A program made the position numbers and the translations under genes. A DNA stretch of 64,000 nt from Mucilaginibacter geliditolerans (GTDB lineage Bacteria; Bacteroidota; Bacteroidia; Sphingobacteriales; Sphingobacteriaceae). Location of the stretch: positions 1,054,001 through 1,118,000 of the forward strand of contig NZ_JACHBY010000001.1 of the NCBI RefSeq assembly GCF_014200495.1, in the 5' to 3' direction. This document shows positions 11,775 through 59,171 of this stretch, in pieces. The notes below the pieces were generated by a model. The model saw only the letters and a list, made by a program, of their open reading frames with translations. It was not told the origin of the DNA and ran no database searches. Position 1 is the stretch's first letter; every line of letters starts with the position of its first letter.

Positions 11775-11803
11775 TATAGCCATTACTAATGGTAATGGCT
11801 ATA
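11775..11803 (-). terminator. Hairpin after the haloperoxidase/DUF3298 operon
   Basis: A 12-bp perfect stem (11775-11786 with 11792-11803) with a 5-base loop lies about 28 bases beyond the stop of the DUF3298 gene. On the minus strand it is followed by a short T-rich stretch. It separates this operon from the GH31 gene. Confidence 0.55.
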
Positions 11804-11831
11804 AATTGTATAGAGAAATATCCCCTGTTAG

Positions 11832-12647: not shown

Positions 12648-12648
12648 C

Positions 12649-13452: not shown

Positions 13453-13460
13453 AATTACCG

Positions 13461-16775: not shown

Positions 16776-16795
16776 AATTGGATATACAGTCTAAT

Positions 16796-42069: not shown

Positions 42070-42097
42070 AATGCCCTTCGCTCTTTCGAAGGGCATT
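42070..42097 (-). terminator. Terminator of the M16/TlpA/MutS operon
   Basis: An 11-bp perfect stem (42070-42080 with 42087-42097) with a 6-base loop. On the minus strand it is followed by TTTTTAATTAA, so it looks like the intrinsic terminator of the minus-strand operon that ends at 42177. Confidence 0.75.
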
Positions 42098-42176: not shown

Positions 42177-44969
42177 TTATTGTTTTGTCGTTTCCGGCAT
42201 CAAAACCAGCCTGATATAATTGTCCCCACTCAGGTATTTGCCGGCCATGGTTTTCACATCGCCGGGTTTTACCGTATCCAGTAAGCTGTTGTACTGGTTA
42301 ACCTCGTTAAGGTCCTGGCCGTTCTGCAATTGCCCGTTCAGGTAGCCTAGCCAGAAATCATTGGTCTTTAATTGCGGCTCAAAGCTGGTTTTATCTTCCG
42401 CGCGCCATTTGTCTACATTTCCCTGCAGGGGGCCGTCGGTTTTAAGCTTACCTATCTCATCCAGTGTTGAAGCAATTAGCTTTTCTACATTCTGCGGCGC
42501 GCAGCCGAAATGAATTAGGAAACTGTAACGCTGCTGTGGCAGTAATACCGTATTCTCTTGCACACCCGGACTGTAAACACCGCTTTCGTCCTCACGCAGC
42601 CGCTCCAACAGGCGAATCTCCAGGGTTTCTTTCAAAGCGTCCATCTTAACATTGTTCTCCGGGCTATAAGCATACTTGCTGGTATATAACAGGTAAACCG
42701 TTGCTTTGGGTTCGCTGCCCTTATAAACGGTCTTTTCGATTCTGCCAGCCGGTGGGTGGATGTTCAGGTCCTTTGCGTGTTCCTGCTGATTGGTTACAGG
42801 TAAGGAACCCAGGTATTTTTCCAATAATGGCTTAATGGTATTCGTATCAATACTGCCCACAAAGGTGAAAGTGAAATTGCTTGCGTCGGCAAAACGTTCT
42901 TTATAAACATGGTATGCCCTATCCAGGCTGATCTGTTCCAGCTTTTCCAGGCTTGGCCCTGTTCTTCGGATGTTGTAATTTCCCAGTACCGCGCTCACCG
43001 TATCACTAAATACGCTATTGGGGTCGCTGCCCCTGTTGGCCAGACCGGCTTTGGAGCGTGCTATGATTCCCTTAAATATCGCTGTATCTTCCCTGGGTTC
43101 GGTAAAGTAGGCATAGATCATTTGCATCGCTGTTTCCAGGTCTTTTGGCGTTGCCCCGCCATTAATGCCCTGGAACCTTTCGTTGATATAAGGCCTTACA
43201 CTCAGTTGTTTGCCCTCCAAATATTTACTCAGTTCCCCGGTGTTATAATTACCAACACCCCCTGCCGCTATAAGACCTGCCGCATTGGCTGCCGACTGGT
43301 AATCCGCATCACTGTACAGGGACGTGCCCCCGGGAGCATAAGCGCTGAAAAGGACCTGGTCATTTTTAAAGTCGGTAGGCTTGAGCAATACCTTTACCCC
43401 GTTACTTAAGGTAATGCTAGTGATGTTCAGTTCCTTGTTCTGCTCTTCGCTTTTGATCTTGCCGGCGACAGGCATAACACTTAATAGCGGCTTACTACTT
43501 ACTTCATCTTTATAAGGGCTAAGCATTTCTGCCTCCACGGCTTTTAACCAGCCGTTTACTGTAGCTTCATCAGGCAGACTGCTTTTGTCTTTTTCGGGTG
43601 CTAAGATCAGTATATCGCGGTTAGTACCGGTGATATAGGTTTTAGCAAGGTTGTTCACATCCGCTAAGGTAATGCCTGGCATGTCGCCTTTGGTTAATTG
43701 GTATTCCTTTTCAATCCCGGGAGACGCTTCGCCGGTTAAGAAATAAGCCTGGTATTCCTTCACATAACTACCGGAATTGGTTTTGTTTTTTTCTTTTACG
43801 GCGCTTTCTATCCCGTTCAGTTGCGTAATTTTCGCCCGTTCAAGTTCGGTTTCGGTAAAGCCGAACCGTTTTAATCTTTCCGTTTCGCGCCATACCGCTT
43901 TCAAGCCTTTTTCCAATTCGCCTGGTTTAGCCTGTACACTGGCATCATAAGCATCCAGGCCGCCCATAAAACCGGATATGCCTGCGCTGCCACTGATAAA
44001 CGGCGGATCAGCTTTTCTTAATAATTCCGCGTAGCGTTCGCTTAACATCTGGTCAAAAAGGCCCTGTACCAATGCAATGCGGTAATCTGCCGCTGTTTTT
44101 AATTCAGGTGCTTTATGCTTGATCATGATCTCGGCCTGGGTTGCAGTCATTTCTTTATCAGTTACCGCTATGAACTGGTTCTTACCGGTTAGCGGCACGG
44201 TGTATTTAGTACGTACTCTTTCGTGTACCGGGTTTTTTAAGCTGGCGAACTGTTGTTTTACCTGGGCTTCGATCTGGTCTACATTGATATCGCCTACTAC
44301 GATCAGTGCCTGCAGATCGGGCCGGTACCAATCGTTATAGAAACGCGCTATAGCCGGTCTTTTAAAGTTATCCAGCACTGTATCCAAACCGATCGGTATG
44401 CGTACCGCGTATCTTGAATTATTCAGGATAACCGGCCAGTATTGCCGTTGCATTCTTTCGCCGGCGCCTTTGCCAAGCCGCTTCTCTTCCAGCACCACGC
44501 CGCGCTCCTTGTCGATCTCTCCGGGGTCGAGCAGCGCCTCGTGTGCCCAGTCGCGCATGATCTCCAGGCCGCCTTTTAACAGTTCCGGTTTGTCCGAAGG
44601 GATGGGCAATTCGTATACGGTTTCATCAAAGCTGGTATAGGCGTTTATATCAGCGCCAAAGCGAACGCCCGCTTTTTGCAGGTAATCCACCAGTTGGTTA
44701 TGCGGAAAATGTTTGGTGCCGTTAAAACTCATGTGTTCCATGAAATGCGCCAGCCCGCGCTGGTCTTCATCCTCCAGCACCGAGCCTGCTTTGTTCACCA
44801 AATACAGCATCACCCTGTTCTTCGGCTCTTCGTTATGACGGATGTAATACGTGAAGCCATTGGCCAGCTTTCCCGTGCGGACCGCCTGATCAAGGGGGAG
44901 GTTTTGCGCTGAGGAGGCACCGATAGTTCCCACAACAAGGCCAGTAATAAAAAGAAGTTTGATTTTCAT
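42177..44969 (-). CDS. M16-family (pitrilysin/insulinase) metallopeptidase
   Basis: A 930-residue exported protein (signal MKIKLLFITGLVVGTIGASS). It is a full two-half M16 enzyme: the first half holds the zinc motif RGLAHFMEHMSFNG with His75, Glu78 and His79, and a second Glu in GVVLEEKRLGKG. The second half, from about residue 500, is the inactive partner. Such enzymes cut peptides inside a closed chamber in the periplasm. The gene lies 7 bases after the TlpA gene and is the last of the operon, so its peptide substrate may be what the SusC/SusD pair imports or what the ABC system exports. Confidence 0.9.
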   Translation of the reverse strand: MKIKLLFITGLVVGTIGASSAQNLPLDQAVRTGKLANGFTYYIRHNEEPKNRVMLYLVNKAGSVLEDEDQRGLAHFMEHMSFNGTKHFPHNQLVDYLQKAGVRFGADINAYTSFDETVYELPIPSDKPELLKGGLEIMRDWAHEALLDPGEIDKERGVVLEEKRLGKGAGERMQRQYWPVILNNSRYAVRIPIGLDTVLDNFKRPAIARFYNDWYRPDLQALIVVGDINVDQIEAQVKQQFASLKNPVHERVRTKYTVPLTGKNQFIAVTDKEMTATQAEIMIKHKAPELKTAADYRIALVQGLFDQMLSERYAELLRKADPPFISGSAGISGFMGGLDAYDASVQAKPGELEKGLKAVWRETERLKRFGFTETELERAKITQLNGIESAVKEKNKTNSGSYVKEYQAYFLTGEASPGIEKEYQLTKGDMPGITLADVNNLAKTYITGTNRDILILAPEKDKSSLPDEATVNGWLKAVEAEMLSPYKDEVSSKPLLSVMPVAGKIKSEEQNKELNITSITLSNGVKVLLKPTDFKNDQVLFSAYAPGGTSLYSDADYQSAANAAGLIAAGGVGNYNTGELSKYLEGKQLSVRPYINERFQGINGGATPKDLETAMQMIYAYFTEPREDTAIFKGIIARSKAGLANRGSDPNSVFSDTVSAVLGNYNIRRTGPSLEKLEQISLDRAYHVYKERFADASNFTFTFVGSIDTNTIKPLLEKYLGSLPVTNQQEHAKDLNIHPPAGRIEKTVYKGSEPKATVYLLYTSKYAYSPENNVKMDALKETLEIRLLERLREDESGVYSPGVQENTVLLPQQRYSFLIHFGCAPQNVEKLIASTLDEIGKLKTDGPLQGNVDKWRAEDKTSFEPQLKTNDFWLGYLNGQLQNGQDLNEVNQYNSLLDTVKPGDVKTMAGKYLSGDNYIRLVLMPETTKQ

Positions 44970-44976
44970 AGGTATT

Positions 44977-46110
44977 TTAATTGAATAGGGTAGCTAATTT
45001 TTTATTTAGTTCATCACCACGCAAATTTTTAGCAATAATCTTTCCGCTTGGATCAATCAGGTAGTTTTGCGGAATAGCTCTGATGCCATAAGCTTTGGCG
45101 GCCTCATTATCCCAAAATTTAAGATCAGATACCTGCGTCCATTCCAAGCCATCGGCTTTAATTGCAGCCAGCCAGGCATCCTTTTTGCCCGGGCGATCCA
45201 AAGAAACGCCTAACACCGTAAAGTTTTTGGTTTTATATTTACCATAAGCTTTAACCACATTAGGGTTTTCGCCACGGCAAGGGCCACACCATGAAGCCCA
45301 GAAATCGACCAATACATATTTACCGCGGAAACTTGCCAATGAAACTGGTTTATCATTCACATCATTTTGTGTGAATACAGGCGCTATAGCACCAATTGAG
45401 GTTGCCCGTGCAGCATCTATAGATTTTGCAAAAGCTAAACCTGCAGTAGTATTACGCACACCTGCAGATAGTCCTTTGTAAAGTGGCTCAATGGAAGTAA
45501 CCTCGATATCCTGACCCGCCACTTCAGTTAATGCCATCAGGCTCACATAAGAATCCGGGTTTTCTTTAATGTAACGGCGCTGCAATTCTTTTCGTTGTTC
45601 CATTGCTGTATCAAACTTGCTTTGTAAACCGTTTACAAATTTCTGGTCTTTCTTTTTGTCAGCCGGAGCTGCCGCGTATTCCGCATTAATAGCTTTTAAT
45701 GTTTTTTCGGGACCTGCAAGAACTGCTTCGTACTTTGCATTATCATCATTAACCTTTGAACCGGTTATTATTGCATACTTAACCGAATCTTTTGCAGTGA
45801 TATTGATATTGCCTTTTTCAAGGTATAGCATAGTTACATCAGCGTCCCCGGCTAAACGAGCCAAACCTTCACCATAATGATCTAATACCAATTGAGCCCT
45901 GGCCGGTTCTGCTACTGTACCAGTGAATTGAAAGGCACCATTATCGATCAAAGCGGAATCAACAACTTGTTTGCCATTCACCATTTGTAACAAATAGGCC
46001 TTTGCAGGCGCCTTATAATTTCCAATTTTAGCTTTTAATACATAATTGTTGCTTTGCGCCCACACCGTTGCCGGAGCAATTGCCAAAGCCAGTAAAATCA
46101 TTCTTTTCAT
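44977..46110 (-). CDS. TlpA-family thiol-disulfide protein with a DUF4369 domain
   Basis: A 377-residue exported protein (signal MKRMILLALAIAPATVWA). Residues 22-120 match DUF4369 (YVLKAKIGNYKAPAKAYLLQ). A helical linker follows, then a thioredoxin domain with the active site WASWCGPCRGENP (Cys275 and Cys278) and cis-Pro in YGIRAIPQNYLID. It would reduce disulfides in periplasmic proteins or peptides. Position between two MutS-like genes and an M16 peptidase in one transcript suggests that its target is shared with the peptidase. Confidence 0.9.
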   Translation of the reverse strand: MKRMILLALAIAPATVWAQSNNYVLKAKIGNYKAPAKAYLLQMVNGKQVVDSALIDNGAFQFTGTVAEPARAQLVLDHYGEGLARLAGDADVTMLYLEKGNINITAKDSVKYAIITGSKVNDDNAKYEAVLAGPEKTLKAINAEYAAAPADKKKDQKFVNGLQSKFDTAMEQRKELQRRYIKENPDSYVSLMALTEVAGQDIEVTSIEPLYKGLSAGVRNTTAGLAFAKSIDAARATSIGAIAPVFTQNDVNDKPVSLASFRGKYVLVDFWASWCGPCRGENPNVVKAYGKYKTKNFTVLGVSLDRPGKKDAWLAAIKADGLEWTQVSDLKFWDNEAAKAYGIRAIPQNYLIDPSGKIIAKNLRGDELNKKLATLFN

Positions 46111-46141
46111 CTCGTTTTATTATTAATTGATTAGTGTTTAT

Positions 46142-47479
46142 TTATTCTTCTTCCAGCATTTTCAGTATCCCCTCATTCTCAATGATCATCATGCCATGGC
46201 GGTCACTTGAAATGCCTTCTGTTAATTGATATGTGTAAGTTGGGATGTTTCCGCTCATAATGGTAGGCAGGTAAAGTGACCGGATGTTGCTTTGTTTATT
46301 TAACACCTCTCCCGCTTCTATGATATGCGTGGAAATAATGAACAAACAATTGCGGTATTCGCTGAAGGCTGCCGTTACGGCAAGTGTCGCATCATAAGCA
46401 TCCTTTACATTGGTGCCTTTAAACAACTCATCAAAAATGATGACCAGGTCCTTTTCATCATTTACTTCTTCAGCTACCTTCTTTACCCTTAATACTTCCG
46501 CGTAAAAGTGACTGTAGCCCATATCCAAATTATCCGGCACATTAATGGAACTATAGATGCCCTGTTTTACCGAGAACTGCATGTCCATTGCTGCTACCGG
46601 AAAACCCATGTGCGCCAGGTAAACGTTAATGCCAAAGGCTTTCATGAACGTAGACTTGCCAGCCATATTCGCTCCCGTTAAAAAGATCATATTGCTGTCC
46701 TGGTTGAAAGACACCGGGTTGGCTACCGCCTTGTGGATATTGGGGTGCCTTAATGAGGTTGCTGTTAAGCAGTTGTTTTCTTTGGGCAAGGCTATTGCAT
46801 AACTGAAGCCTTTTTCTTTTGCTAAGTTAGCCACTGTTATATATACATCCAGCTGATAAAAAATTTCCATTACTGTTTGTAAGGCTGATCTCATTGTATA
46901 CCTTAACAGGTGGTCGTACCTTGCTGATTTTTGCAGGGTATATGGAGTGGCAATGGTTTGTTCTTCTGACAGCCATTCGAGTTTTGGGTCATTCAAAATG
47001 TTTTTTGCAGTCAATAGTTCACCCTGGAAAGGATGATATTGTTCTTTTTTTTCATCATCCTTTAATTGGCTGATAAAGGTTTTACAGCTATTCAATAAAG
47101 CGATGGTTTGCTGTAAGCCGTTTTGAAGTTTTGGATACTCTTCATCTTGTACTATAGTGGCCATTAGTTTCTTCTTTGTCAGGATGAGCAGCGTGACGGG
47201 GTAATTATTTGAGGTGCTGCCATTAAGGTAGTTCTCCATCATACCAAACTGCTCATTACTGAACGGGAATGTGGTTTGCTTGCCTTGAAAGTATTTGAAG
47301 GTTTCGCTACGCATGTTTATACTTTCAGGATCATCCAGCGGATTTTGGAACATCTTTTGGAGAAGCTGTTCCCCTCCTGCTGTTCTTACTTTGTTGAACA
47401 GACTGAAGATCGAATGCTGCTTGTATTTGCCCAGCATGTTCAGGTCTTCCAATGTTTGTTTATCGGCTATGAAACTCAT
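46142..47479 (-). CDS. MutS-like ATPase lacking mismatch-recognition domains (copy A)
   Basis: A 445-residue protein with the MutS core (domain III, residues 1-230) and ATPase (domain V, residues 235-440) only. Domain III shows DLNMLGKYKQHSIFSLFNKV, then GGEQLLQKMFQNPLDDPESINMR (the GSLLxxLdxTxTxxGxRlLrxWL-like region). The ATPase has Walker A TGANMAGKSTFMKAF, a Walker B-like VIIFDELFKGTN and IISTHIIEAGEVL. The N-terminal clamp and mismatch-reading domains I and II are missing, so it cannot work as classical MutS. Overlaps copy B by 4 bases (ATGA). Confidence 0.88.
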   Translation of the reverse strand: MSFIADKQTLEDLNMLGKYKQHSIFSLFNKVRTAGGEQLLQKMFQNPLDDPESINMRSETFKYFQGKQTTFPFSNEQFGMMENYLNGSTSNNYPVTLLILTKKKLMATIVQDEEYPKLQNGLQQTIALLNSCKTFISQLKDDEKKEQYHPFQGELLTAKNILNDPKLEWLSEEQTIATPYTLQKSARYDHLLRYTMRSALQTVMEIFYQLDVYITVANLAKEKGFSYAIALPKENNCLTATSLRHPNIHKAVANPVSFNQDSNMIFLTGANMAGKSTFMKAFGINVYLAHMGFPVAAMDMQFSVKQGIYSSINVPDNLDMGYSHFYAEVLRVKKVAEEVNDEKDLVIIFDELFKGTNVKDAYDATLAVTAAFSEYRNCLFIISTHIIEAGEVLNKQSNIRSLYLPTIMSGNIPTYTYQLTEGISSDRHGMMIIENEGILKMLEEE

Positions 47480-48822
47480 TTGGTTATGCCCTCCTTGCTT
47501 TTCTTTAATAATTCCAGGATGCCTTCATTGTTAATAATGATCATCCCGTGGCGGTCATCAGTAATACCTGTTTCCAATGTATAGGTGTATTCGGGTATTG
47601 TACCATTCATCCGGGTAGGCAGGTATTTAAAGCTGATATTGTTATGTTCCTTCAGCACCTCTCCCGCCTCTATGATATGCGTGGAAATCACAAACATGCT
47701 GTTACGCTTTTTGGCAAATGCCGAGGTGATAGCAATTGTGGCCTCATAGGCATCCTTTACATTGGTGCCTCTGAACAACTCATCAAAGATCACGAAGATG
47801 TTCCTGCCTGTGCTCAATTCTTTGGCGACCTTTTTTATCCGCAGTACTTCTGCATAAAAATGACTGGCTCCAATCCCTAAGTTATCCGGCAGGTTGATCG
47901 TGGTATAAATGCCATCCAGTACCGAAAACTCCATTTGCTTTGCCGGTACTGGGAAGCCCATGTGCGCCAAATACATCGAAATTCCAAGCGATTTCATAAA
48001 AGTTGATTTACCTGCCATATTCGCCCCTGTTAAAAAAACAACGTTGCTGTCAGGCATAATGTGGATGGTATTGGGTACCGCGTTTTTTAGTTGCGGATGG
48101 TAAAAGCCTTCTATTTTGATCACATGCCCTTCCTTGAACAAGGCTTTTGCGAAAATATAGTTGCGTTCGGTGGCTACTTTGGCTATGGTTATGTATACAT
48201 CCAACTGGTAAATGTATCGTAATAACTGCTGTACTGTTTCACGATAGCGGAACCTCAGCATTAAATCGCAGGCTGCCAGTTTCTCATGAGGCAGCTTACT
48301 TTTTGGGTTTTCCTGTAGCAGTAAACTAATAGGTTCCGAGCTTAAAAGCGTTTGAATCTTTATTGTTTCCTCATCGCTTTTAAAAGGGCCGTCTGATGAT
48401 AGCAGCGTGTTTTTTAACAGGCTGTTTAATTGCTGTATAATTTCCACCAACGCGCTTATCCCGTTAACTATCTGCTTATAGTCGGCGTTTGATGCCACCA
48501 GGCTTGTCAGCATTTTTTCCAGCGATGGCTTTTCTGCCGGGAGCTTTGTCCTTTCGTCCGTATTAGCCAAATATTGCTCTGCCGGGTCAAACAGTTCGGA
48601 GCTGAACGGGAACTCGGCTTTTACTGTTTTCAGATATCTGATCTTTTCACTGCGCGCATTGATCGCCTCTGCTTCCGAAAGCGGGTAATTAAACAGTTCT
48701 TCCAGCAGCCTGGAGCCGTTTAGCGTTGAGGTACGGTTGAACAGGGAAAGGATAGAATCCGTTCCCTGTTTACCATAGATATTCAGATCTTCCTGCGTTT
48801 GCTTGTCTGTCGTGAATAACAT
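47476..48822 (-). CDS. MutS-like ATPase lacking mismatch-recognition domains (copy B)
   Basis: A 448-residue paralogue of copy A with the same layout: domain III (DLNIYGKQGTDSILSLFNRT, NGSRLLEELFNYPLSEAEAINAR) and ATPase (Walker A TGANMAGKSTFMKSL, VIFDELFRGTNVKDAYEA, VISTHIIEAGEVL). Both copies keep NMAGKST and the STH motif, so both should hydrolyse ATP. Because the two differ in the clamp region (for example an insertion in copy B around residue 90-100) they may form an asymmetric pair. It starts 2 bases after the GldF-GldG gene and the 4-base overlap with copy A implies coupled translation. Confidence 0.88.
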   Translation of the reverse strand: MLFTTDKQTQEDLNIYGKQGTDSILSLFNRTSTLNGSRLLEELFNYPLSEAEAINARSEKIRYLKTVKAEFPFSSELFDPAEQYLANTDERTKLPAEKPSLEKMLTSLVASNADYKQIVNGISALVEIIQQLNSLLKNTLLSSDGPFKSDEETIKIQTLLSSEPISLLLQENPKSKLPHEKLAACDLMLRFRYRETVQQLLRYIYQLDVYITIAKVATERNYIFAKALFKEGHVIKIEGFYHPQLKNAVPNTIHIMPDSNVVFLTGANMAGKSTFMKSLGISMYLAHMGFPVPAKQMEFSVLDGIYTTINLPDNLGIGASHFYAEVLRIKKVAKELSTGRNIFVIFDELFRGTNVKDAYEATIAITSAFAKKRNSMFVISTHIIEAGEVLKEHNNISFKYLPTRMNGTIPEYTYTLETGITDDRHGMIIINNEGILELLKKSKEGITK

Positions 48823-48824
48823 AC

Positions 48825-51272
48825 TTATTTTCGTTTACGGCGGATAAGGAAAATGGCGGCAAAGATCAATATGAGACCAGGCAATACATATATGTATATG
48901 ATCTTTAAGAAACTTACGTGGTCTGTACTTACTGTTACCCGGTTGTCTTTGGCATCCGGACGTGAGGTATCTACAGGATATTGGCCATAATCTAACCAGC
49001 TGAATAATGCTGTGCTGAAATAGAAATTACTTACCTGTGGGGTGTATCTTCCTAACTCCGAATTACTAAACAGGTCGGCATCACCACTAACAACGATGCG
49101 CTGCTCCTTACCATTGATTTGACGTGTTAAGGCCAATGCGGTAGTAAAGGTCTCCTTTGAAATATTTTTGTTATCAGCAGACGTCGATAGTTTTACTGTT
49201 TTTTTTGCTCCAACTTTGTGTAAGCCACCCATTGGTACAGCGGTAGCATAACCACCACCGCCAGCAGCCATTATATGAACCCCGCCGTTTTGAGCTGTGT
49301 TGGCATCGTCTTTATTATTTACAATATCCAAATCGGGGTTTCGCCTCATGGTATTACTAACTACTCCGGCTTTTGTTATCAGCAAAGGCTGAATATGAAA
49401 TCCGCTGGTATCATGAAAAGATAAGCCCGCCACGCCGTTCATCGAAACAGGCAAAGTGTCTACAGAAGGTTTATCCAGCATTTTAGAGAAACTGATGGCG
49501 GCTTTTGTTAAATTAGGCAATACTAATGTCGGCGCATAATCTTCACTTTCTTGCTCCAGCATACCATTATTCAACTGTACTCCTAATGTTTTCAGTAAAG
49601 GATTTAGCATTTGCTGCCTGCCAGGTTCACCGGCTATTAACAAGTTGCCGCCTTTAGCAATATAGGCTTGTATCTTTTGGATGGCTACCGCGCTTAATTC
49701 ATTCTGCGGATCTGCAATTACTAACGCCTTAATATTGTCAGCGATATTTTGGGTGTTTAACGAAAGTGTATCTACATCAAACCCCTGATTAATAAGCGCG
49801 TAACGAAAAGTTTTGTCAGTAGAAACTGTTTTATACTCCCTATCACCTTTCTTACCGGTTTTGCGCTCCCCTTCACCAGTTACAAAACCAATTACAGGCA
49901 TGTCAGCTTTTAATAGCCTTTTAAAGGCAGCCGAAACTTCGGTTTCACTCGGCCAAACCATCTGGTCATTGAAAACCCGCAAAAAAGTGGACCTTCCTTT
50001 ATAGGTTAATTTCATCACAAACCTGTTCATTTCCGGCTTCAGGTCAATTTCTTTTTTGATCTGTTCCGGTGTTTCAAACATAGACATCTTCAAATCAGAT
50101 CCTTTGGCCCTTTGTTCGGCAATTTCTTTTATTGTTTTGCCTTTATAACCTTCAAACAGGTTGTAACCTAAGGCTAAGGGCATATCATAATAACTCACGT
50201 AATGAAAATCGATATCCGGCTTAAACCTTAAATAAGATTCCCATCTCCCTAAGTATTCGTTGCGTGCTTCTGGCATCCCAAACCAATAATAATTATCCAA
50301 AAAATTGCTGTAAGCAGTAACTTCCAGCTTGTCATCGCCCAATTCTTTGATGATCTGTTGTGCATTTGGAGTTAACGTATTATCCTGGTTTGCTGTTGTA
50401 TCCCAATAACCGATCAAACTTGGGAGGGAAGTAATATAACCAATAGCTAAAGCTGAAACAACAATAGCAATGTAACGCCCTGCAGAAACATACCATGGTT
50501 TTGTTTCGCGCCCTGATTGTAACTTATATATGGTTAACCCCAGGAAAATGTACACAATAACGAAAAAATAGATCACATCCTTAGTGGTGATCAATCCTCC
50601 AAGCATATGGTGGGTTCGGCCCGAAAGGGATAGAAAATAAGTCAGGTCGCGTACAAAATCTACGCTCTGCCATAAGTTACCTATGTAACTCAAAACACCT
50701 ATCATTACAAAAGTACTTACAGCTGCCACTATCTGGTAACTGGTTAAACTGGACATAAAAAGCCCAATGGCCGAATAAGCACATAACAACAGGTAAAAGC
50801 CAAGGGCGGCGGCCAACAGCATCCCATAATCTGCCGACTTGATATCAAAAATACCAGCCACCATAAAAATGCCTATTACAAGCAATAGTATGAAGCTGTA
50901 TGCCATCATAGCCAGGTATTTGCCGAAAACAATTTCCCTTACTTTTACCGGGGAAGAGTAAAGCAGGCTTATGGTGCCGCCATTAATTTCCCGGCTGATT
51001 AGGCCCATGGTTAACAATGGAATATACAAATACAAGTTTTGCATAACCCCATTGAATAAACCCTGATATGGATTTGTAAATACCTCTGCTGTTAGTTGCC
51101 TCAGATATTGCAACCCCATGCCGCCCATTTCCTGTGTGGTAGCTATCTGGTTTACTACTTTGGTATAGGTAATTGCACATTCTACCATAAAAGCGATGGT
51201 TAAAAACCAGGCTATAGGTGAGTAAAACAGGTTGCGCAGTTCTGCTTTTGCTATTTTAAAAGTTAATTTCAT
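48825..51272 (-). CDS. ABC-2 permease fused to a GldG-like extracytoplasmic domain
   Basis: An 815-residue protein. Residues 1-250 hold about six membrane spans of the ABC-2 (GldF-like) type, with TYTKVVNQIAT after span 1. Residues 270-790 form a long GldG/ABC_transp_aux domain (DTTANQDNTLTPNAQQIIKEL and KALVIADPQNELSAVAIQKIQ), then one C-terminal span (IIYIYVLPGLILIFAAIFLI). In gliding bacteria these are two proteins, GldF and GldG; here they are one. It pairs with the ATPase gene 11 bases upstream. No gliding motor genes are in the window, so a general transport role is more likely. Confidence 0.88.
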   Translation of the reverse strand: MKLTFKIAKAELRNLFYSPIAWFLTIAFMVECAITYTKVVNQIATTQEMGGMGLQYLRQLTAEVFTNPYQGLFNGVMQNLYLYIPLLTMGLISREINGGTISLLYSSPVKVREIVFGKYLAMMAYSFILLLVIGIFMVAGIFDIKSADYGMLLAAALGFYLLLCAYSAIGLFMSSLTSYQIVAAVSTFVMIGVLSYIGNLWQSVDFVRDLTYFLSLSGRTHHMLGGLITTKDVIYFFVIVYIFLGLTIYKLQSGRETKPWYVSAGRYIAIVVSALAIGYITSLPSLIGYWDTTANQDNTLTPNAQQIIKELGDDKLEVTAYSNFLDNYYWFGMPEARNEYLGRWESYLRFKPDIDFHYVSYYDMPLALGYNLFEGYKGKTIKEIAEQRAKGSDLKMSMFETPEQIKKEIDLKPEMNRFVMKLTYKGRSTFLRVFNDQMVWPSETEVSAAFKRLLKADMPVIGFVTGEGERKTGKKGDREYKTVSTDKTFRYALINQGFDVDTLSLNTQNIADNIKALVIADPQNELSAVAIQKIQAYIAKGGNLLIAGEPGRQQMLNPLLKTLGVQLNNGMLEQESEDYAPTLVLPNLTKAAISFSKMLDKPSVDTLPVSMNGVAGLSFHDTSGFHIQPLLITKAGVVSNTMRRNPDLDIVNNKDDANTAQNGGVHIMAAGGGGYATAVPMGGLHKVGAKKTVKLSTSADNKNISKETFTTALALTRQINGKEQRIVVSGDADLFSNSELGRYTPQVSNFYFSTALFSWLDYGQYPVDTSRPDAKDNRVTVSTDHVSFLKIIYIYVLPGLILIFAAIFLIRRKRK

Positions 51273-51283
51273 TATAGGATGGA

Positions 51284-52216
51284 TTAGGATTGCGTTGATT
51301 TGGTAGATAGTTGTTTGAAAATCTCATCAAGGGCCGTTTTGTCAAGGTTAATCTCTCTTAAGCGCCAGCCGTTATGTATGCTCGCCGCTATAAGCCTTTC
51401 CGTAATTTCACGGTCACCTGTAAAATAAACGCGGGCTTGCCGTTCCGTTACAAACTCCACTTTATCCACGCCAGCTATCTTCAATAGCTCCGCTGCCACC
51501 GGAGGGTTTTCCATTTGCATCAACACGCTATGTGGCTCCACGTAGTTATTGAAAGCATCCATGGTATCAGAAAAAACAATGCGGCCATCAGCTATCATTT
51601 TTATCTCTTTACATAACATCTGCACTTCTGATAAAACATGGGAAGAAAAAATAACGGCATGTTCTACAGCAATTTCTTTGATCAGTGACCGTACCTCGGT
51701 AATCTGGTTAGGGTCTAAACCATTGGTTGGTTCATCCATTACCACCAGCTTCGGTTTATGAATAATAGACTGCGCGATGCCTACCCGCTGGCGGTAACCA
51801 CCCGACAGGTTCTTGATCAGGCGGTTGCTGAAGTGAGTTATACCGCAACGATCTTTTGCTTCCTCCAGGGCTGGTTTAATATCCATTTTATCCATTTTCC
51901 GTAGCTCAGCCGCATAAATGAGGTATTCATCTACTGTCAGGTCTAAGTACAACGGTGGATTTTGAGGAAGGAAGCCGATTTGCCTTTTAGCTAATTCCGG
52001 CTGTTCACGGATATCTATTCCGTTAATTAGCACAGTGCCTTCCGTTTGGTTTAAAACACCGCACATGATGTTCATGGTGGTAGATTTACCTGCGCCGTTT
52101 GAGCCAAGCAAGCCTAATATCCCAGTCCGGTTTATTTCCAGGTCAATATCGCGGATGGCCCAGGAAGTGCTGTAGCGGTGCGATAATTTTTTAATACTCA
52201 AGATTGAATTTTCCAT
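51284..52216 (-). CDS. ABC transporter ATP-binding protein (GldA-like)
   Basis: A 310-residue ATPase from the ATG at 52216 (an upstream in-frame start at 52264 adds 16 residues unlike the family). Walker A LGSNGAGKSTTMN, Q-loop IGFLPQNPPLY, signature LSGGYRQRVGIAQ, Walker B LVVMDEPTNGLDP and switch His in VIFSSHVLSE are all present. A C-terminal 90-residue extension (KVEFVTERQARVYFTGDR) is typical of the ABC-2 group. Together with the fused permease it forms a complete exporter. Confidence 0.93.
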   Translation of the reverse strand: MENSILSIKKLSHRYSTSWAIRDIDLEINRTGILGLLGSNGAGKSTTMNIMCGVLNQTEGTVLINGIDIREQPELAKRQIGFLPQNPPLYLDLTVDEYLIYAAELRKMDKMDIKPALEEAKDRCGITHFSNRLIKNLSGGYRQRVGIAQSIIHKPKLVVMDEPTNGLDPNQITEVRSLIKEIAVEHAVIFSSHVLSEVQMLCKEIKMIADGRIVFSDTMDAFNNYVEPHSVLMQMENPPVAAELLKIAGVDKVEFVTERQARVYFTGDREITERLIAASIHNGWRLREINLDKTALDEIFKQLSTKSTQS

Positions 52217-52309
52217 ATTTGGTTTTTTATTGAAATACGAGCCCCAGTCCGGGGTACAAATCATACCCTGGATATTGGACTAAAGTGTTTATTATCAGAA
52301 ATTTACTAT

Positions 52310-53731
52310 TTAATGATACCCGGGGTTTTGTGTAAGCGCGATGTTTAAATTTCGCTGCGTTTGTGGTATTGCGTATAAGGCACTAAAAGGCTGCCAACCA
52401 GCTAATACAGCAGGCGCTTGTCCGCTTGCCGGGTACTTGGTATCAATACTAGTCCTGTTCAAATCAAACCACCTGTTACCCATTTCGGTGAACATTTCTG
52501 TCCGTCTTTCTTTCAAAACGGCGCCTAATACAGCAGTTTTTGATGTGGCATCAACTTTAGTACCTGTTAAGCCTGCCCTGGTGCGTATAGTATTTATATC
52601 TGTTATAGCCTGGCTAAGGTTATTAAGTTGTGCCGCAGCTTCGGCGCGTACCAGGTATATATCAGCATACCTTAACAGCATATAATCTGTAGCAGGGGTG
52701 GTTGGAGATTGATCCTTATATTTAGCAGGATAATATACGTTCTGGCCATTCACCACATTCACACCCAGCCAATTTGCCATGCGCAGGTCGCCGGTTTCAA
52801 ACTGATTTATCAAAGAGTCTGTTACCGGATAGTTTGGCGCTGAATCTGTAGAATAAGGTATAAAATTTCCTGCTTCACTAGATCCCTGATATTGATTTAG
52901 GATTGGCACCTGCCAGATAGCCTCATTACTTTCATCCAAAAACACCTTTGTAAGATCTGTCGATAGGCTAAAGCTGCCAGAGTTAATGACCGAATCAGCT
53001 TCGCTATAAGCAGCCTGCCAGTTGCGCTGGTATAAATTGACTTTGGCTTGTAATGCTCTTACCGTATAAAGATTAGCACGCAAGTGGCCTGCCGAAGGAT
53101 AGGTTGCCGTTAATTTTTTAGCGGCATCGTTAAGGTCGGTTTCAATCTGTGTATATATAGCTGCAGACGTAGTGCGGGGTAAATGAGCATTGGTATTATA
53201 ATCAGTTGTAGTAACTAAAGGCACGCCACCAAATAAATTAACCATGTTAAAATAACAATAGGCCCGTACAAACTCCATTTCTCCTGTAATTTGTTTAACG
53301 AATGACGCGGATAAAGCGCTGTTGCCTGTTATACCACTCAGTATATCATTTACCTGGTAAATTTCTGTATAATGCGCTAACCATATATCATTTATTTCGC
53401 TGTTTAGCGCAGTGAGGCTGTAATTGAAAAATACTGTTTGATCACTATTAGAACTGTTATTACTTACATCATGCCCCGAAAGAGATGTAACAAAAGTAAA
53501 TTCCCCATCCTGGTAAGGAATTCCTCCCCCGCCAGGGGTTAAAGAATATACACCGGCAACAGTTGAAAGGGCCGTAGAGCTATCTGCAAATGCCTGCTGT
53601 CTTGTAATATTTGATGGTGGATTGGCAGGTATTTCAATTAACTTTTTGCATGAAGCAAAGCTACTGAGGGCAATAACCAAACCACCCGCCAGTATTTTAT
53701 TTTGATTAGAAAATATTTTTTTCATGATCAT
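52310..53731 (-). CDS. SusD/RagB-family surface lipoprotein
   Basis: A 473-residue protein with a lipoprotein signal (ILAGGLVIALSSFASCKKL; the second Met, at 53725, may be the real start). The SusD body has TPR-like helices with DLNDAAKKLTATYPSAGH and the C-terminal RTRAGLTG, KERRTEMFTEMGNRWFDLNRT region. The SusD partner caps the SusC channel and binds the ligand at the surface. It starts 7 bases after the SusC stop. The substrate is not a common polysaccharide judging by the absence of glycosidases around it. Confidence 0.93.
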   Translation of the reverse strand: MIMKKIFSNQNKILAGGLVIALSSFASCKKLIEIPANPPSNITRQQAFADSSTALSTVAGVYSLTPGGGGIPYQDGEFTFVTSLSGHDVSNNSSNSDQTVFFNYSLTALNSEINDIWLAHYTEIYQVNDILSGITGNSALSASFVKQITGEMEFVRAYCYFNMVNLFGGVPLVTTTDYNTNAHLPRTTSAAIYTQIETDLNDAAKKLTATYPSAGHLRANLYTVRALQAKVNLYQRNWQAAYSEADSVINSGSFSLSTDLTKVFLDESNEAIWQVPILNQYQGSSEAGNFIPYSTDSAPNYPVTDSLINQFETGDLRMANWLGVNVVNGQNVYYPAKYKDQSPTTPATDYMLLRYADIYLVRAEAAAQLNNLSQAITDINTIRTRAGLTGTKVDATSKTAVLGAVLKERRTEMFTEMGNRWFDLNRTSIDTKYPASGQAPAVLAGWQPFSALYAIPQTQRNLNIALTQNPGYH

Positions 53732-53738
53732 TAATTAT

Positions 53739-56700
53739 CTAAAATTTAAGATTTAAACCAAATGCGATAATACGTTGTAAAGGAAATCCGGTAAAACTAC
53801 CTGGTTGTTCAGGATCACCGAATTTATAATTGGTGAAGGTGAACAAGTTTTGCGCACTAGCAGTAATACTGGCACTCTTAACGTTAACTTTTTCCATCCA
53901 GGCATCAGGTAAGGCATATGAGAATGCCGCGGTTTTAACACGCAGGTAAGTATCATTGGTATAAGCCCCGGTTGATTGCTCGAAAGTATATGCACTGTTA
54001 ACATATGGTGAATTGTAACCAGATACCAATCGCTGAAGCGTAGCATGCGTATCGCCAGGGCCTGTCCAATATTTACCGAGTATATATGCAGGTTGATTAG
54101 ACTCAGAACCTGGAGGCTGGCTATAAAGTGAAGAAATAGCATTAGGTTGCATACTGCTAGAGAACTGGCAGAAAATATAAAGGCTAAATCTTTTATAACT
54201 GAAATTATTGCCAAAACCACCTTCATAGTTATTTTCTCTGTTACCAATTATCACTTCGTCGCCACCTTGTGCGGCTGTTCCGTAGTTTGGATTTGAAGTA
54301 ACTGATCCGTTAGCCGCGTAATACTCAAACTGACCAGTAGTAGGGTTTACATCCTTATACCTGTAACCAAATACTACAGAAGTAGGCTGACCTACTACAT
54401 ACTGTGAGGCATAAGAAGACGATGCCAGGTTAGGGAATGAAAGCAGTTTATTCCGGTTAAATGTTAGGTTAAAGTTGCTTGTCCAGTTAAAATTCTTGCT
54501 TTTTATGTTGTTTGTTGCTAGTGTAAATTCCCAACCTTTGTTTTGAACTTCACTATTTTGGTTTTCAAACACAGTAGCAAAACCGGCTTGTGCGGCCAAT
54601 GGATATTGAACCAACTCATCGCCCTGGCGGTCCCTGTAATAGGTAGCATTTAACAATATGCGGTTATTCAAAAAGCCCAAATCTATCGATGCATTGATTG
54701 ATTTTTTGGTTGCCCATTGAAAATCAGGATTGTAAAGGTTCTTTGGGATGTTTTGCCTAATGCCCTGGAAAGGCGTGGTATTACCATATGGGTAAGGGCC
54801 ATACAATGCCTGATATTGATAAGCTTGGGTAGCATCACTTCCTGTTGTTCCGTAACTTCCGGAAAGTTTACCAAAACTCATAAAAGGAAGGGCATCTTTA
54901 AATGCTTTCTCCTCAGAGAAGATCCAGCCGGCGCCTACAGAACCAAAACTACCAAACTGTTTGCCCGGGCCAAAATTACTGGAACCATCACGCCTGCCAC
55001 TAAATTCTAAAATATATTTTTCATCATAAACATATTTCAAACGGCCAAAAAAGGCTACGTATTTAGTAATGCCTTGTACATCGAAATTATTACTTGTGGC
55101 CGCTCCATCAATTGACCCCAGGAAAGCAGGATTTGAATAACCATAACCATAGGTTTGCTCTTGATACGTTGTATTATATTGATAGCTACCACCCAGTAAA
55201 GCGGTCAATGTTCCTTTACCAAAAGTTTTGTTATAATTGATCTGCGGCTCAACGCTAAGGGCTTGATTGTTGGTATTAGCAAACTCTGCACTTGAAGTAG
55301 CAATTTCATATGTTTCCGGCGGTAGCGCATTTGCAGGGGATATGCCATGCTCTGTACCACCATTACGGTTGTAGCCCACGGTACTTCCAATTGTTAACCC
55401 CTTTATTATTTCATAGTTAAAATTTATTGAAGTATTGTAATTAAAAGTTTGCAGATTGTTAGGTTGCAATAAACCAGCATATAAATTATTATAAATTTCT
55501 ATTCCCTTGTAAAACCAAATTAAATTACCGTTCGCATCTCGCTGATCGGGTGCATTAGGAGGTAACGTTACGTAAGAGCTGCCTCCAAAACCTGCAGAAT
55601 AATTTCGATCATATGAAAAATCCTGGATGAAGGTAACGCTTAACTTTTTATTTGCCGAGGTAGTGGTTAGCGCGCTGTGTAAGCTGTATCTCTGATCGGA
55701 AAAATCACCCGGGTAATTAAAGTCTGAACGTGTATAACCACCAGATACAAGAAAAGTGCTGTTGGGGGATCCGCCAGATACGGTGGCATGGATATCTGTA
55801 TTGTTGGTAGAATTTCCTTGAATTACCTTTTGCCAGTTGGTGTATTTGTTTTGATCGTAATCAAAAAGATCGGGCGCATAAGCACCTGAATAATCATTTG
55901 GATTATTATTTGGCGTTATACCGTCAAATCCATAAGCATCTTTTCTTAATTGGAGGTATTGCGGGGTATTTAAAAATTGTATAGGCCTGGCAACTTCGTT
56001 GTACTGTGTGGTTGCATTTAATTCGACAGTTGTTTTACCTACTTTTCCTTTTTTTGTGGTTATTAAAATAACACCGCTGGCACCTTTTGTACCATAAATA
56101 GCGGTCGCATCCGCAGAACTAAGGACAGTGATACTTTCTATATCATTGGGGTTAATACCATTAAAAGCACCTATACCAGTTGCCTGGTCAATTCCTCCGC
56201 TAAAAGATTGTCCCATGGCAAGATTGCCTAATTGACTAATGTTAATATTTTGCGAAGCGAAAGGTACTCCATCTACAAGAAAGTAAGGTTGGTCATAAGG
56301 TTTCATGTTAAGGTTAGCAGTGGTAGCCAATCCGCTTTGGCCATGTATCTGCACTAATGTTGTTGAGCCGGGTACACCGTTCTCTGCAATAATGTTAAGC
56401 CCGGGAACTTGCCCTTCTAATGCCAGCAAAGGATTGGTTACCGGTTGAACTCCGATCTGGTCGGCGTTAACAGTATATACATTTCCAACACTAAAACGCT
56501 TAGATTCAGTACCGTAACCAATAATCTGTATTTGGTTAAGCGCCGAAGGTATATTGTGCAAAACCAGATTAAGCCAAATATTCCTGTTATTGATCTGCAC
56601 AATTCTTTCAAGCTTCTTATAGCCAATATAGGTTACGGTCAATGTATAGCTTTCTTGCGGTAAACTACCAAAATGAAATTCGCCCTTATTATCAGTCATC

Positions 56701-57206
56701 ACTACATAAGAGAACCCTTTTAAGTTTAAGCTTACGTTTGCTCCAGCCAAAGGTTGGCCGAGGCTATCTATGACTTTTCCGTGTACTTCTCCGGAGACGG
56801 CGAATACCCTGGCGGCATTATCCCGAAAATTATTGATTATTGAGGATTCTTTTAGGGATATTTCTACTGATTTGTCCTCAATCTTATAATCTAAAGGTTG
56901 CTCGTCAAAAACCATTTTCAACACATCAGTTAATTCCACGTTTTTCACGTAGATGGTCACCGATTTGGCAGCCTGAATAGTTGCGGTGGTATAAGCGAAA
57001 TCATAACCAGTCTGATTCCGGATTTGCTCAAATACAGTAGTTAATGATGCATTCCGTTCAGACAAAGTAACCTTTTGCGCAAGAGTGCTGGCGCTCACCT
57101 GCATGAAGGCTAAGAATAGCATCAGGGTGGTTAATTTCATGAACAACAAGAGTTTTTTTGTAAAGCCGGGGGGCAACACAAAGTGTTCTGAGTAAATTTT
57201 GTACAT
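53739..57206 (-). CDS. SusC/RagA TonB-dependent receptor with an STN signalling domain
   Basis: A 1155-residue outer-membrane protein. N-terminal MYKIYSEHFVLPPGFTKKLL is typical for sphingobacterial SusC proteins, followed by a signal segment ending ASTLAQ. Residues 50-120 are a STN (secretin/TonB) domain that talks to FecR (LTTVFEQIRNQTGYDFAY). A carboxypeptidase-like domain follows (GKVIDSLGQPLAGANVSL), then the plug (VTNPLLALEGQVPGLNI, GVPGSTTLVQIHGQSGL) and a 22-strand barrel ending in FGLNLKF. The STN domain and the FecR and sigma genes just upstream mean that binding of the ligand induces the operon. Confidence 0.93.
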   Translation of the reverse strand: MYKIYSEHFVLPPGFTKKLLLFMKLTTLMLFLAFMQVSASTLAQKVTLSERNASLTTVFEQIRNQTGYDFAYTTATIQAAKSVTIYVKNVELTDVLKMVFDEQPLDYKIEDKSVEISLKESSIINNFRDNAARVFAVSGEVHGKVIDSLGQPLAGANVSLNLKGFSYVVMTDNKGEFHFGSLPQESYTLTVTYIGYKKLERIVQINNRNIWLNLVLHNIPSALNQIQIIGYGTESKRFSVGNVYTVNADQIGVQPVTNPLLALEGQVPGLNIIAENGVPGSTTLVQIHGQSGLATTANLNMKPYDQPYFLVDGVPFASQNINISQLGNLAMGQSFSGGIDQATGIGAFNGINPNDIESITVLSSADATAIYGTKGASGVILITTKKGKVGKTTVELNATTQYNEVARPIQFLNTPQYLQLRKDAYGFDGITPNNNPNDYSGAYAPDLFDYDQNKYTNWQKVIQGNSTNNTDIHATVSGGSPNSTFLVSGGYTRSDFNYPGDFSDQRYSLHSALTTTSANKKLSVTFIQDFSYDRNYSAGFGGSSYVTLPPNAPDQRDANGNLIWFYKGIEIYNNLYAGLLQPNNLQTFNYNTSINFNYEIIKGLTIGSTVGYNRNGGTEHGISPANALPPETYEIATSSAEFANTNNQALSVEPQINYNKTFGKGTLTALLGGSYQYNTTYQEQTYGYGYSNPAFLGSIDGAATSNNFDVQGITKYVAFFGRLKYVYDEKYILEFSGRRDGSSNFGPGKQFGSFGSVGAGWIFSEEKAFKDALPFMSFGKLSGSYGTTGSDATQAYQYQALYGPYPYGNTTPFQGIRQNIPKNLYNPDFQWATKKSINASIDLGFLNNRILLNATYYRDRQGDELVQYPLAAQAGFATVFENQNSEVQNKGWEFTLATNNIKSKNFNWTSNFNLTFNRNKLLSFPNLASSSYASQYVVGQPTSVVFGYRYKDVNPTTGQFEYYAANGSVTSNPNYGTAAQGGDEVIIGNRENNYEGGFGNNFSYKRFSLYIFCQFSSSMQPNAISSLYSQPPGSESNQPAYILGKYWTGPGDTHATLQRLVSGYNSPYVNSAYTFEQSTGAYTNDTYLRVKTAAFSYALPDAWMEKVNVKSASITASAQNLFTFTNYKFGDPEQPGSFTGFPLQRIIAFGLNLKF

Positions 57207-57361
57207 TTGCTAAGTTAGGGTTGTGCGTTTCGCCTTTCGTTTTCCAAGACAGGGAGGCTGGCGCGGTTCTTAAATAGTTAATAAATTGTTTGAGCTATCC
57301 TTTCTAAGTCATCCGGTTACAGCCAGGTGACTTTTTTTATGAGCTCGCGGTCTGGTATTGA

Positions 57362-58474
57362 TTATTCTATAACGGTTACCCTCCTTCCTTCAATTTTAAA
57401 GTGTACGCCTTTGGTATTTTCGAGTATATGTAAGATAGCGCTGATATTTTTGGAACGGCTGATCTGTGCATAGAATTTATTGGTCGTTATATCGCCTTCG
57501 TAGTTTATTTCGATATTATACCAGCGCGAAAGTTGCCTCATTACGGTTTGAATGTTGTCATTCTCAAAATAGAAGTCGCCGTTTCTCCAGGCCGTATATC
57601 TTCTGGTGTTGACGGCATTAATATGGCTGCCATCACTCTGCTGACCGGGTTCCAGGAACATGCCGTTCACTTTAACTTTCCCTTCGATAAGGGTGGTTTT
57701 AGTCGTTGGTTCATCAACATAGGCGTTCACGTTGAAAGTGGTGCCGATATCTTCGATGGTTTGCTTTTCGGTTTGTACCTTAAAAGGATGGTCAGCATTA
57801 TGCGCTACTTCAAATAAGGCCTCCCCTGTAATTCTCACAATTCTTTCTTTACCGTTAAATGCTGTAGGAAAGGTTATTGAGGATTGGGCATTTAGCCATA
57901 CTTTTGTTCCATCAGCCAATAGCAATGGATAAGGTGATTGTTCGCCCACAGCGGTAGATAAAGTGTTGTAGGAAACAGATAAATTGGCATTTGTACCAGC
58001 TGCTGTATAAGCTATTGCGCTTTGCCCGTTTACTCCAATCAATGTATTGCCTTGCTGTGCCAACGTACCCGATAATCCTTTGATCAGGATTATTTTTTTA
58101 CCATTAGCTAAGGTCAGTGTAGCCTGGTTATGACCAGGTAAAATGTCATTTTTATAATAAGCAGTTTGCTCGGATTGATGCTTGTGCAGGAAATAATAGC
58201 CGCCGAACGATATGCACATTACAATTGAAGCGGCAGCTGCAAATCGTGTCCATAAGCGTCTGGTGATTTTGTCAGGAAGGCGCGTATCAATTTGTTCGTT
58301 GATGCGATGTTCTATTACACTCTTAAGTTCATCAGCGTTTCCTAATTCTGCATCGTTCCATTCGCTTAAAGATTGAAATTTACTGAACCAGATGTGATAC
58401 AGGCGAATATCCTGATCACTGGCGCTACCCTGCCTTACTCGGTCAACAAGTTTTAAGAAATTTTCTTTTGTCAT
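57362..58474 (-). CDS. FecR-family anti-sigma factor
   Basis: A 370-residue protein: an N-terminal cytoplasmic domain (MTKENFLKLVDRVRQGSASD), one membrane span (FAAAASIVMCISFGGYYFL) and a periplasmic FecR domain (VGEQSPYPLLLADGTKVWLN, GEALFEVAHNADHPFKVQT), then a C-terminal DUF4974-like segment (DNIQTVMRQLSRWYNIEINY) that contacts the STN domain of SusC. Located 155 bases upstream of the SusC gene. Confidence 0.93.
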   Translation of the reverse strand: MTKENFLKLVDRVRQGSASDQDIRLYHIWFSKFQSLSEWNDAELGNADELKSVIEHRINEQIDTRLPDKITRRLWTRFAAAASIVMCISFGGYYFLHKHQSEQTAYYKNDILPGHNQATLTLANGKKIILIKGLSGTLAQQGNTLIGVNGQSAIAYTAAGTNANLSVSYNTLSTAVGEQSPYPLLLADGTKVWLNAQSSITFPTAFNGKERIVRITGEALFEVAHNADHPFKVQTEKQTIEDIGTTFNVNAYVDEPTTKTTLIEGKVKVNGMFLEPGQQSDGSHINAVNTRRYTAWRNGDFYFENDNIQTVMRQLSRWYNIEINYEGDITTNKFYAQISRSKNISAILHILENTKGVHFKIEGRRVTVIE

Positions 58475-58601
58475 TCCGTTTGACGGATTTTTAGCCCGCT
58501 TTCAATAGTAAGGCGAAAAAAGAGCGTCTATCCCCCAAAGGAATCAGAAATAAATTTAACAAAATTTCAATTTAATCGAAATCGATCTATATAAATGCGC
58601 T

Positions 58602-59171
58602 TTAAAGGAAAAAAAGCCATATAGAAACACTTCCCAGAGCCACTCGAAGCTTTTTTAGCGCTATAGTAATCTGATTTTCTACTGTTTTTTCAGAAATACC
58701 TAACTTTGTTGCAATTTCCCGGTTAGATAACTGTTCATTCCGGCTTAATTCAAATATCAGCCTCGCTCGCGCAGGCAATTTCGCACTCATTTGCGCGATT
58801 ACTGTTTTCAGTTCTTTAAGTTCCAAAGGATCGTCGTCAAATAATAGGTTTGCGGCATCCAGTTCATCCAAATTTACAAAACAGGCTTCCCGTACTTTGT
58901 TGCTGCGTAATATATCCGTGACTTTATATTTAACAGCAGCCTTTAAATATGACGGCAGTGAATTGATCTGTAAGCCTGACCGGTGATCCCATAACCACAC
59001 AAATACTTCCTGGATGACCTCCATGCAGGATTCTTGATCACGAAGTACGTTCCAGGCCGTTTGATACAATGATCGCCAGTAACGACTATAAAGTTCGCCA
59101 AATGCGGCCCGGTCATCCTTCCCTATAAGGGAGAGAATTTCCTGATCAGAAAGCGTGGGGAGTACTAACAT
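58602..59171 (-). CDS. ECF RNA polymerase sigma factor
   Basis: A 189-residue sigma-70 family factor. Region 2 is DRAAFGELYSRYWRSLYQTA with the later EVIQEVFVWLWDHRSGL; region 4 is LPARARLIFELSRNEQLSNR and then EIATKLGISEKTVENQITIAL. It starts the minus-strand block and is followed by FecR after 127 bases. The set sigma-FecR-SusC is the standard transenvelope switch of Bacteroidota. Confidence 0.93.
   Translation of the reverse strand: MLVLPTLSDQEILSLIGKDDRAAFGELYSRYWRSLYQTAWNVLRDQESCMEVIQEVFVWLWDHRSGLQINSLPSYLKAAVKYKVTDILRSNKVREACFVNLDELDAANLLFDDDPLELKELKTVIAQMSAKLPARARLIFELSRNEQLSNREIATKLGISEKTVENQITIALKKLRVALGSVSIWLFFL

Follow-up and report, generated by a model that had tools for sequence, protein, structure and literature searches.

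A ten-gene cluster of Mucilaginibacter geliditolerans, lying on the minus strand at 42177..59171 of a 64,000-nucleotide stretch of contig NZ_JACHBY010000001.1 (this whole stretch is called the window hereafter), is one real, conserved and recurrent system, in which two ATPases of the MutS family, here named MutA and MutB, are linked with an ABC transporter of the GldA-GldFG type and with a SusC-SusD import pair. In its operon, which is modular, MutA and MutB have evolved together with the ABC genes and the FecR-type anti-sigma factor, but much less so with the receptor. What can two MutS proteins do beside an envelope transporter? We give an even chance to the reading that a branch of MutS left DNA and became, as an obligate heterodimer, a cytosolic ATPase subunit of the GldA-GldFG machine, which would serve sigma/FecR-controlled SusCD import systems in Bacteroidota. 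Envelope transport machines of this class would contain ABC-superfamily ATPases of two kinds and be combined with interchangeable receptors and peptidases. If this is true, MutS-family ATPases work in envelope transport, which would be surprising to the DNA-repair and transport fields alike.

An initial annotation of this DNA, made from the letters alone, had read ten minus-strand genes here. All of them are present as open reading frames (ORFs) where it placed them, and their families are confirmed by Pfam and NCBIfam:

58602..59171, minus strand: extracytoplasmic function (ECF) sigma factor, 189 amino acids (TIGR02985, 138.6 bits against a cut-off of 126.4)
57362..58474, minus strand: FecR-type anti-sigma factor, 370 amino acids (PF04773, PF16344; one transmembrane-like segment at 78-96)
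53739..57206, minus strand: STN-SusC, 1155 amino acids (TIGR04056, 631.8 bits against a cut-off of 368.25; STN E 1.2e-9)
52310..53731, minus strand: SusD-family protein, 473 amino acids (PF07980, 97.3 bits against 23.1; PF14322; N-terminal lipoprotein-like SCKK, by eye)
51284..52264, minus strand: GldA-like ABC ATPase, 326 amino acids (PF00005; best family GldA, TIGR03522, at 257.4 bits, under the cut-off of 402.6)
48825..51272, minus strand: GldF/GldG-like fusion (GldFG), 815 amino acids (ABC2_membrane_2 and ABC_transp_aux)
47476..48822, minus strand: MutA, MutS domain III+V ATPase, 448 amino acids (PF05192, PF00488)
46142..47479, minus strand: MutB, MutS domain III+V ATPase, 445 amino acids (PF05192, PF00488; separate clade)
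44977..46110, minus strand: TlpA-like thiol-disulfide protein (DUF4369 and AhpC/TSA, CGPC; signal-peptide-like N-terminus, by eye)
42177..44969, minus strand: M16 peptidase, PqqL/FusC-like (PF00675, PF05193; HFMEH active site; signal-peptide-like N-terminus, by eye)

The gaps between neighbouring genes are 127 bases (sigma-FecR), 155 (FecR-SusC), 7 (SusC-SusD) and 45 (SusD-GldA), followed by 11 (GldA-GldFG), 2 (GldFG-MutA), -4 (MutA-MutB), 31 (MutB-TlpA) and 7 (TlpA-M16), the last five being exactly those annotated before.

It is the conservation counts, together with covariation, that make this locus more than a chance assembly. A search with MutA across 301 genomes of the same family (E <= 1e-60, at most five candidates per genome, copy counts being lower bounds) gave matches in 93; in 57 of these there is just a remote solo copy or a fragment. 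Besides the window, 43 twin-type loci were collected: 33 have two genes, nine have the twins in a single ORF, and L077 has a single gene, of the MutB type. Genes in them were identified by their similarity to the ten proteins of the window and counted on the same strand anywhere in a stretch of up to ~20 kb, strict position being required only of the upstream GldFG and of M16 as a following gene. Of the 43 loci, 42 have GldFG immediately upstream, SusC and SusD are each found in 42, FecR in 39 and the sigma factor in 37, both of the latter lying only downstream in L057 and L076. M16 occurs in 28 loci, always as one of the two genes that follow, and a TlpA-like gene in eight. At least 15 named loci with shorter flanks were added, 14 of which were scored; L123, which begins at a contig edge, is unscored for every gene, and the fragmentary L166 (Niabella) was excluded. 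Here GldFG is directly upstream in 14/14, SusC is present in 10/14 and SusD in 11/14, while a TlpA-like gene is found in 0/14 (L123 carries one). Fifteen of the named loci were listed by order: six belong to Chitinophagales, five to Bacteroidales, two to Sphingobacteriales and one to Flavobacteriales, with no order for one. Thus the check set beforehand, conservation outside close strains, came out in favor of the system, whose core recurs in all four of these orders. Taken over family and named loci, GldFG is directly upstream in 56/57 scorable twin-type loci. Among 24 solo MutS loci (including the MutS fragments L094 and L095, and one solo at a contig edge), GldFG is directly upstream in none, and SusC and SusD stand on the same strand in none and one, respectively. 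Two loci show further genes: in L122 (Butyricimonas sp. Marseille-P3923), OEP/TolC, HlyD-type, ABC ATPase and MacB-like genes come immediately after tandem pairs of GldA-GldFG and after MutA-MutB, and a SNF2-type helicase gene is located near the core in a Bacteroidetes metagenome-assembled genome (L121:13412-16255).

Is the transporter equally dependent on the MutS pair? When these 301 genomes were searched for GldFG, with at most three candidates per genome (copy counts again being lower bounds), it was present in 59, 23 of which have no twin-type MutS. Twin-type MutS is carried by 36 genomes (35 with the pair, one with MutB alone; tallied by hand), every one of which has GldFG, versus 23/265 others (Fisher p ~3e-31, the genomes in this test not being independent). 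There are 33 further GldFG loci without the twin, 31 of them clean: L198 stops at a contig end, and L218 has a cut-off MutA. They contain SusC in 30 cases, SusD in 29, FecR in 31, sigma in 27, an adjoining GldA in all 33 and M16 next in 12. The ABC machine thus occurs in SusCD-GldFG loci that have no MutS, which makes the MutS pair an addition to it. From the same loci it might be argued that the pair is just a passenger of the operon without any tie to the transporter, but the converse arrangement is near-absent, as the 56/57 count over four orders indicates; this count and the covariation given below disfavour passenger status, and we see hardly any probability in it. In L209, L214 and L224-L229, which are without MutS, one GldA is flanked by two GldFG copies, possibly forming heteromeric GldFG transporters, and GldFG/GldA are mostly located behind SusD and two ORFs aligning with DUF4843/PKD_2 proteins.

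Modularity of the operon is seen in pairwise-identity correlations, which were calculated on 36 loci with all eight genes, dereplicated to 31 (with M16, 26 loci became 21), using only gene copies upstream of the MutS pair or, for M16, downstream of it. In the 31 loci the value is 0.87 for GldA-GldFG, 0.86 for MutA-MutB and 0.73 for SusC-SusD. MutA correlates with GldFG at 0.76, with GldA at 0.75 and with FecR at 0.70, and with SusC at 0.34, SusD at 0.07 and sigma at -0.01; the SusC-GldFG value is 0.40. In 999 permutations the value of MutA was reached 0 times for MutB, GldFG, GldA, FecR and SusC, 128 times for SusD and 511 times for sigma. A comparison of the window with L036 gives the same picture, with identities of 87% for MutA, 86% for GldFG and 86% for M16, against 63% for SusC, 56% for SusD, 40% for FecR and 33% for sigma; it is milder in L037 (MutA 79%, GldFG 83%, M16 64%, SusC 70%, sigma 73%). 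Thus, the ABC genes, the MutS pair and FecR have evolved as a single machine, whereas the receptors and sigma factors joined to it change. FecR, for its part, correlates with MutB at 0.71, SusC at 0.36 and sigma at only 0.08, which may mean that sigma genes are swapped without regard to FecR.

Such values could suggest that MutA-MutB is part of the signalling arm, sensing the transporter's state and acting on FecR, because FecR covaries with both MutS proteins more than with SusC or sigma. It is also to be noted that in five of the 33 MutS-less loci (L210, L211, L212, L220 and L223) the order is sigma-GldA-GldFG-FecR-SusC-SusD; GldA-GldFG between sigma and FecR indicates that the transporter is tied to the sensor. 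However, FecR is equally present without MutS (31/33 loci) and, to our knowledge, no FecR system uses a MutS protein, which leaves this idea very improbable.

Next, we consider the twins themselves. MutA and MutB are 47% identical and make two separate clades, 56/58 each; Walker A (TGxNMAGKST) and Walker B DE with the next His are invariant in 14/14 sequences, in the MutA and MutB alignments alike. Judging from these sequences, they are two ancient paralogues. They are fused into one protein in 9/58 loci, and natural fusions are also seen in a protein search that scored the 7990 candidates with most words in common. With the first start codon taken, the median gap of 48 split pairs is -4 bases, and GldFG and MutA are separated by 20 bases or less in 46/56 loci. 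The genetics of the pairing suggests that MutA-MutB would be an obligate heterodimer. The fusion loci L047, L055, L056 and L058-L061 also have M16, followed by a second GldFG to which no GldA of its own belongs.

Like KamC, MutS2 and MutS, the twins consist of domain III and an ABC-type domain V with intact motifs. Unlike them, they form a hetero-pair tied to an ABC transporter, and Pfam gives no match to a mismatch-, connector-, clamp- or Smr-domain, domains III and V being the sole MutS domains found. A role in mismatch repair was rejected, with no mismatch-binding domain I and a best full-length MutS score of 149.1 against 480. MutS2 scores are 86.4 and 75.3 bits against 400. Rescue or protection in the manner of MutS2, in which MutA-MutB would act on the ribosome or nucleic acid and be merely co-regulated with the import genes, therefore has to do without the domains concerned and against strict GldFG linkage and covariation, and we consider it improbable. 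Phage defence was also rejected, the PADLOC matches listed for six proteins (25 of 31 for the fused protein) being only generic ATPase-motif or ABC-ATPase matches. As for KamC, the twins could be a reactivating ATPase for a cobalamin enzyme or another cofactor enzyme. Their scores with the KamC model NF052383 (125.2 and 109.9 bits) point in this direction but are under its cut-off of 300. A solo MutS III+V paralogue of the same genome (L079:9989-11338 on contig C11, the same as L003; 39% to MutA) sits 312 bases downstream, on the same strand, of a fused MM_CoA_mutase, MeaB and B12-binding protein, an arrangement that recalls KamC. Nevertheless, a B12 mutase adjoins this one solo paralogue only, the other eight listed solo neighbours being different, and the ten genes include no cofactor enzyme of such a kind; the KamC link was thus rejected and its probability is minimal.

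What, then, is the transporter? GldFG is predicted to have a NosY-like membrane domain (~1-257), an IFT52-like domain (~457-768), which is taken as periplasmic, and a C-terminal transmembrane segment. The names GldA and GldF-GldG given in the initial annotation are right as to family, including the GldG-type auxiliary domain, but by score these proteins are relatives, not orthologues, of the gliding proteins: GldA reaches 257.4 bits against 402.6 and the GldF model 71.2 against 288.5, both under the equivalog cut-offs, so that a gliding role was rejected. In addition, unlike the gliding transporter, permease and auxiliary domain are fused here and joined to SusCD. The NosY-like domain is shared with ABC-2 units of the NosDFY/PmtCD type, from which GldFG differs by its IFT52-like domain; no NosD-like gene was found by Pfam among the ten genes.

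From these parts we propose, at somewhat less than an even chance, a ligand-sensing import-and-processing system for peptides or proteins with a dedicated ABC machine, of which MutA-MutB would be the cytosolic partner; here we infer the ligand, the direction of GldFG, the contact between MutA-MutB and GldA-GldFG and the signalling, and take the folds from prediction. Judging from families and gene order, a ligand bound by SusC/SusD would act via STN, FecR and sigma to turn the operon on, and a peptide or small protein would enter the periplasm through SusCD. TlpA might open disulfides where needed, and M16 or the peptidase of a sister locus might cut the molecule; by sequence, both M16 and TlpA begin with a signal-peptide-like segment, and their active-site motifs, HFMEH and CGPC respectively, are intact. 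GldA would drive GldFG, a NosY/ABC-2-type unit with a large IFT52-like domain, either to clear the inner membrane of what was imported, whole or as membrane-active fragments, or to transmit mechanical work to the periplasm. MutA-MutB, as a heterodimeric two-site ATPase, would work on the cytosolic side, most likely as an ATP-driven clamp or regulator of the transporter and not on mismatched DNA.

The same parts might serve defence against peptide antibiotics: a toxic peptide would be sensed, destroyed in the periplasm and pulled from the inner membrane by GldA-GldFG, with MutA-MutB assisting it or protecting the target. Pulling peptides out of the inner membrane is what LanFEG lantibiotic-immunity and PmtCD phenol-soluble-modulin exporters do. 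The GldA-like ATPase scores 193.9 bits with drrA and 172.2 bits with a lantibiotic-protection ATPase family, both under cut-off, PmtCD turns up among the weaker matches to the GldFG fold (E 0.017, 0.15), peptidases vary among sister loci, and the L122 core lies beside OEP/TolC, HlyD-type and MacB-like genes. This efflux-pump context is confined to a single locus, however, and a TonB-type importer, needless for a defence locus, would concentrate the toxin. Defence appears rather unlikely. In a further scheme, a self-made ligand such as a metallophore or signal would be secreted by GldA-GldFG, retaken by SusCD and processed by M16/TlpA; indeed an exporter-type unit shares the operon with a TonB-type receptor, and the predicted GldFG fold is of an export type. 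Against this loop, no biosynthesis gene was seen among the ten genes or 18 unlabelled neighbour ORFs of sister loci scanned with Pfam, and receptor and exporter covary only moderately (SusC-GldFG, as above). A small precursor-peptide gene nearby, as the initial annotation had suggested, did not emerge either: short intergenic ORFs are present, but no shared precursor was recognised when 4/5 intergenic stretches of the window were compared as DNA with four close relatives (L036-L039). Similarity there is patchy, except for the SusC-FecR gap common to the window and L037. The chance of such a loop is small.

Returning to import and processing, a peptide or protein ligand is plausible from the sequences, a peptide having been suggested at first; its supposed cysteines find weak support because TlpA-like genes are so rare (8/43 and 0/14 loci). 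M16 finds its best PDB matches in 9ldy (551 bits), PqqL 6ofs (233.4) and 6b03 (166.8), a similarity at the family level. The entry 6b03 is named putative zinc protease, and we take it to be FusC. M16, though common, is replaceable, a Met-zincin standing in its place in L045 and a trypsin-PDZ protein in L062; further peptidases of sister loci are a subtilase (L201) and two M14 (L226).

Several points weigh against our reading of the locus. A GH2-like protein (by eye) in L073 and a weak PHB (polyhydroxybutyrate)-depolymerase/esterase match in L048 tell against a purely peptide ligand. The best solved matches of SusC are SusC homologues, RagA and BT_2264; they do not settle the ligand, because some import glycans and some import peptides. 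For the PKD_2 and DUF4843 lipoproteins encoded in sister loci there is no PDB match beyond chance level, and the lead that they are relatives of the solved BT2261/BT2262 was dropped with this result. ABC-2-type units are usually exporters, a poor fit with nutrient uptake. In the 21 M16-bearing loci the modules are less distinct (MutA-SusC 0.59, M16-SusC 0.68, M16-MutB 0.79). As to exceptional loci, L051 has twin MutS without an adjoining GldFG (its genome has GldFG elsewhere), L077 has only its single MutS, SusCD is missing from the collected stretch of L121, and in L127 it lies on the opposite strand. Finally, promoter- and terminator-like motifs occur at chance level. The Bacteroidota promoter motif TTTG-N-TANNTTTG occurs six times in the window versus 4.07 expected, and terminator-like hairpins number 18 versus 19.0 expected, the one just 3' of M16 being a consensus match only:

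42070..42097, minus strand: terminator-like hairpin, 11-bp stem with 6 G-C pairs and a T-rich tail

How does this system compare with known ones? The FusC protease cuts imported ferredoxin in the periplasm (PMC6793856). The survey of Fus/YddB-PqqL systems (Grinter 2019; PMC6793856) describes clusters in Proteobacteria, and SusC appears in it a single time, where a figure legend gives it as a distant group. Compared with these systems, the window locus is alike in gathering a TonB-dependent receptor, a periplasmic M16 protease, PqqL/FusC-like at the level of family similarity, and an inner-membrane transporter in one cluster. It is unlike in belonging to Bacteroidota and in having SusC-SusD, sigma/FecR control, an ABC-2/NosY-like GldFG and the MutS pair; its receptor is of the SusC/RagA group, which the survey shows separately, and not of the FusA family. 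Thus, the layout resembles Fus protease-associated import without the locus being a member, and intact-protein import by the window locus is putative; if our proposal is true, Bacteroidota possess their own counterpart to the Fus protein-piracy systems. With SusCD importers under ECF sigma/FecR control the locus shares its families and the sigma-FecR-STN-SusC-SusD order, including the import pair proper, a TIGR04056 SusC/RagA barrel followed by a SusD_RagB protein. Unlike in those, ABC transporter, MutS pair, M16 and TlpA replace the glycosidase: none was found by Pfam/NCBIfam among the ten genes, so it was right to set the locus apart from standard polysaccharide utilisation loci, which have a carbohydrate-active enzyme in the operon.

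Each part of the system is a known family. The new part, as far as the literature was searched, is the recurrent link of a MutS hetero-pair with an ABC transporter; in the open-licence literature searched, no description was found of a SusCD-GldAFG-MutS system or of such a linked pair, nor any pathway that would explain the pair, in agreement with the initial annotation. Its choice of this locus as the best candidate for an undescribed system is borne out in that the system is real, conserved and without a description found, and has to be amended in that it is modular, with the MutS pair much less tied to the receptor. Elsewhere in the window, a carbohydrate cluster occupies 3304-19204 on the minus strand and contains an alpha-galactosidase, a hybrid two-component regulator, two GH31 proteins and an alpha-L-fucosidase.

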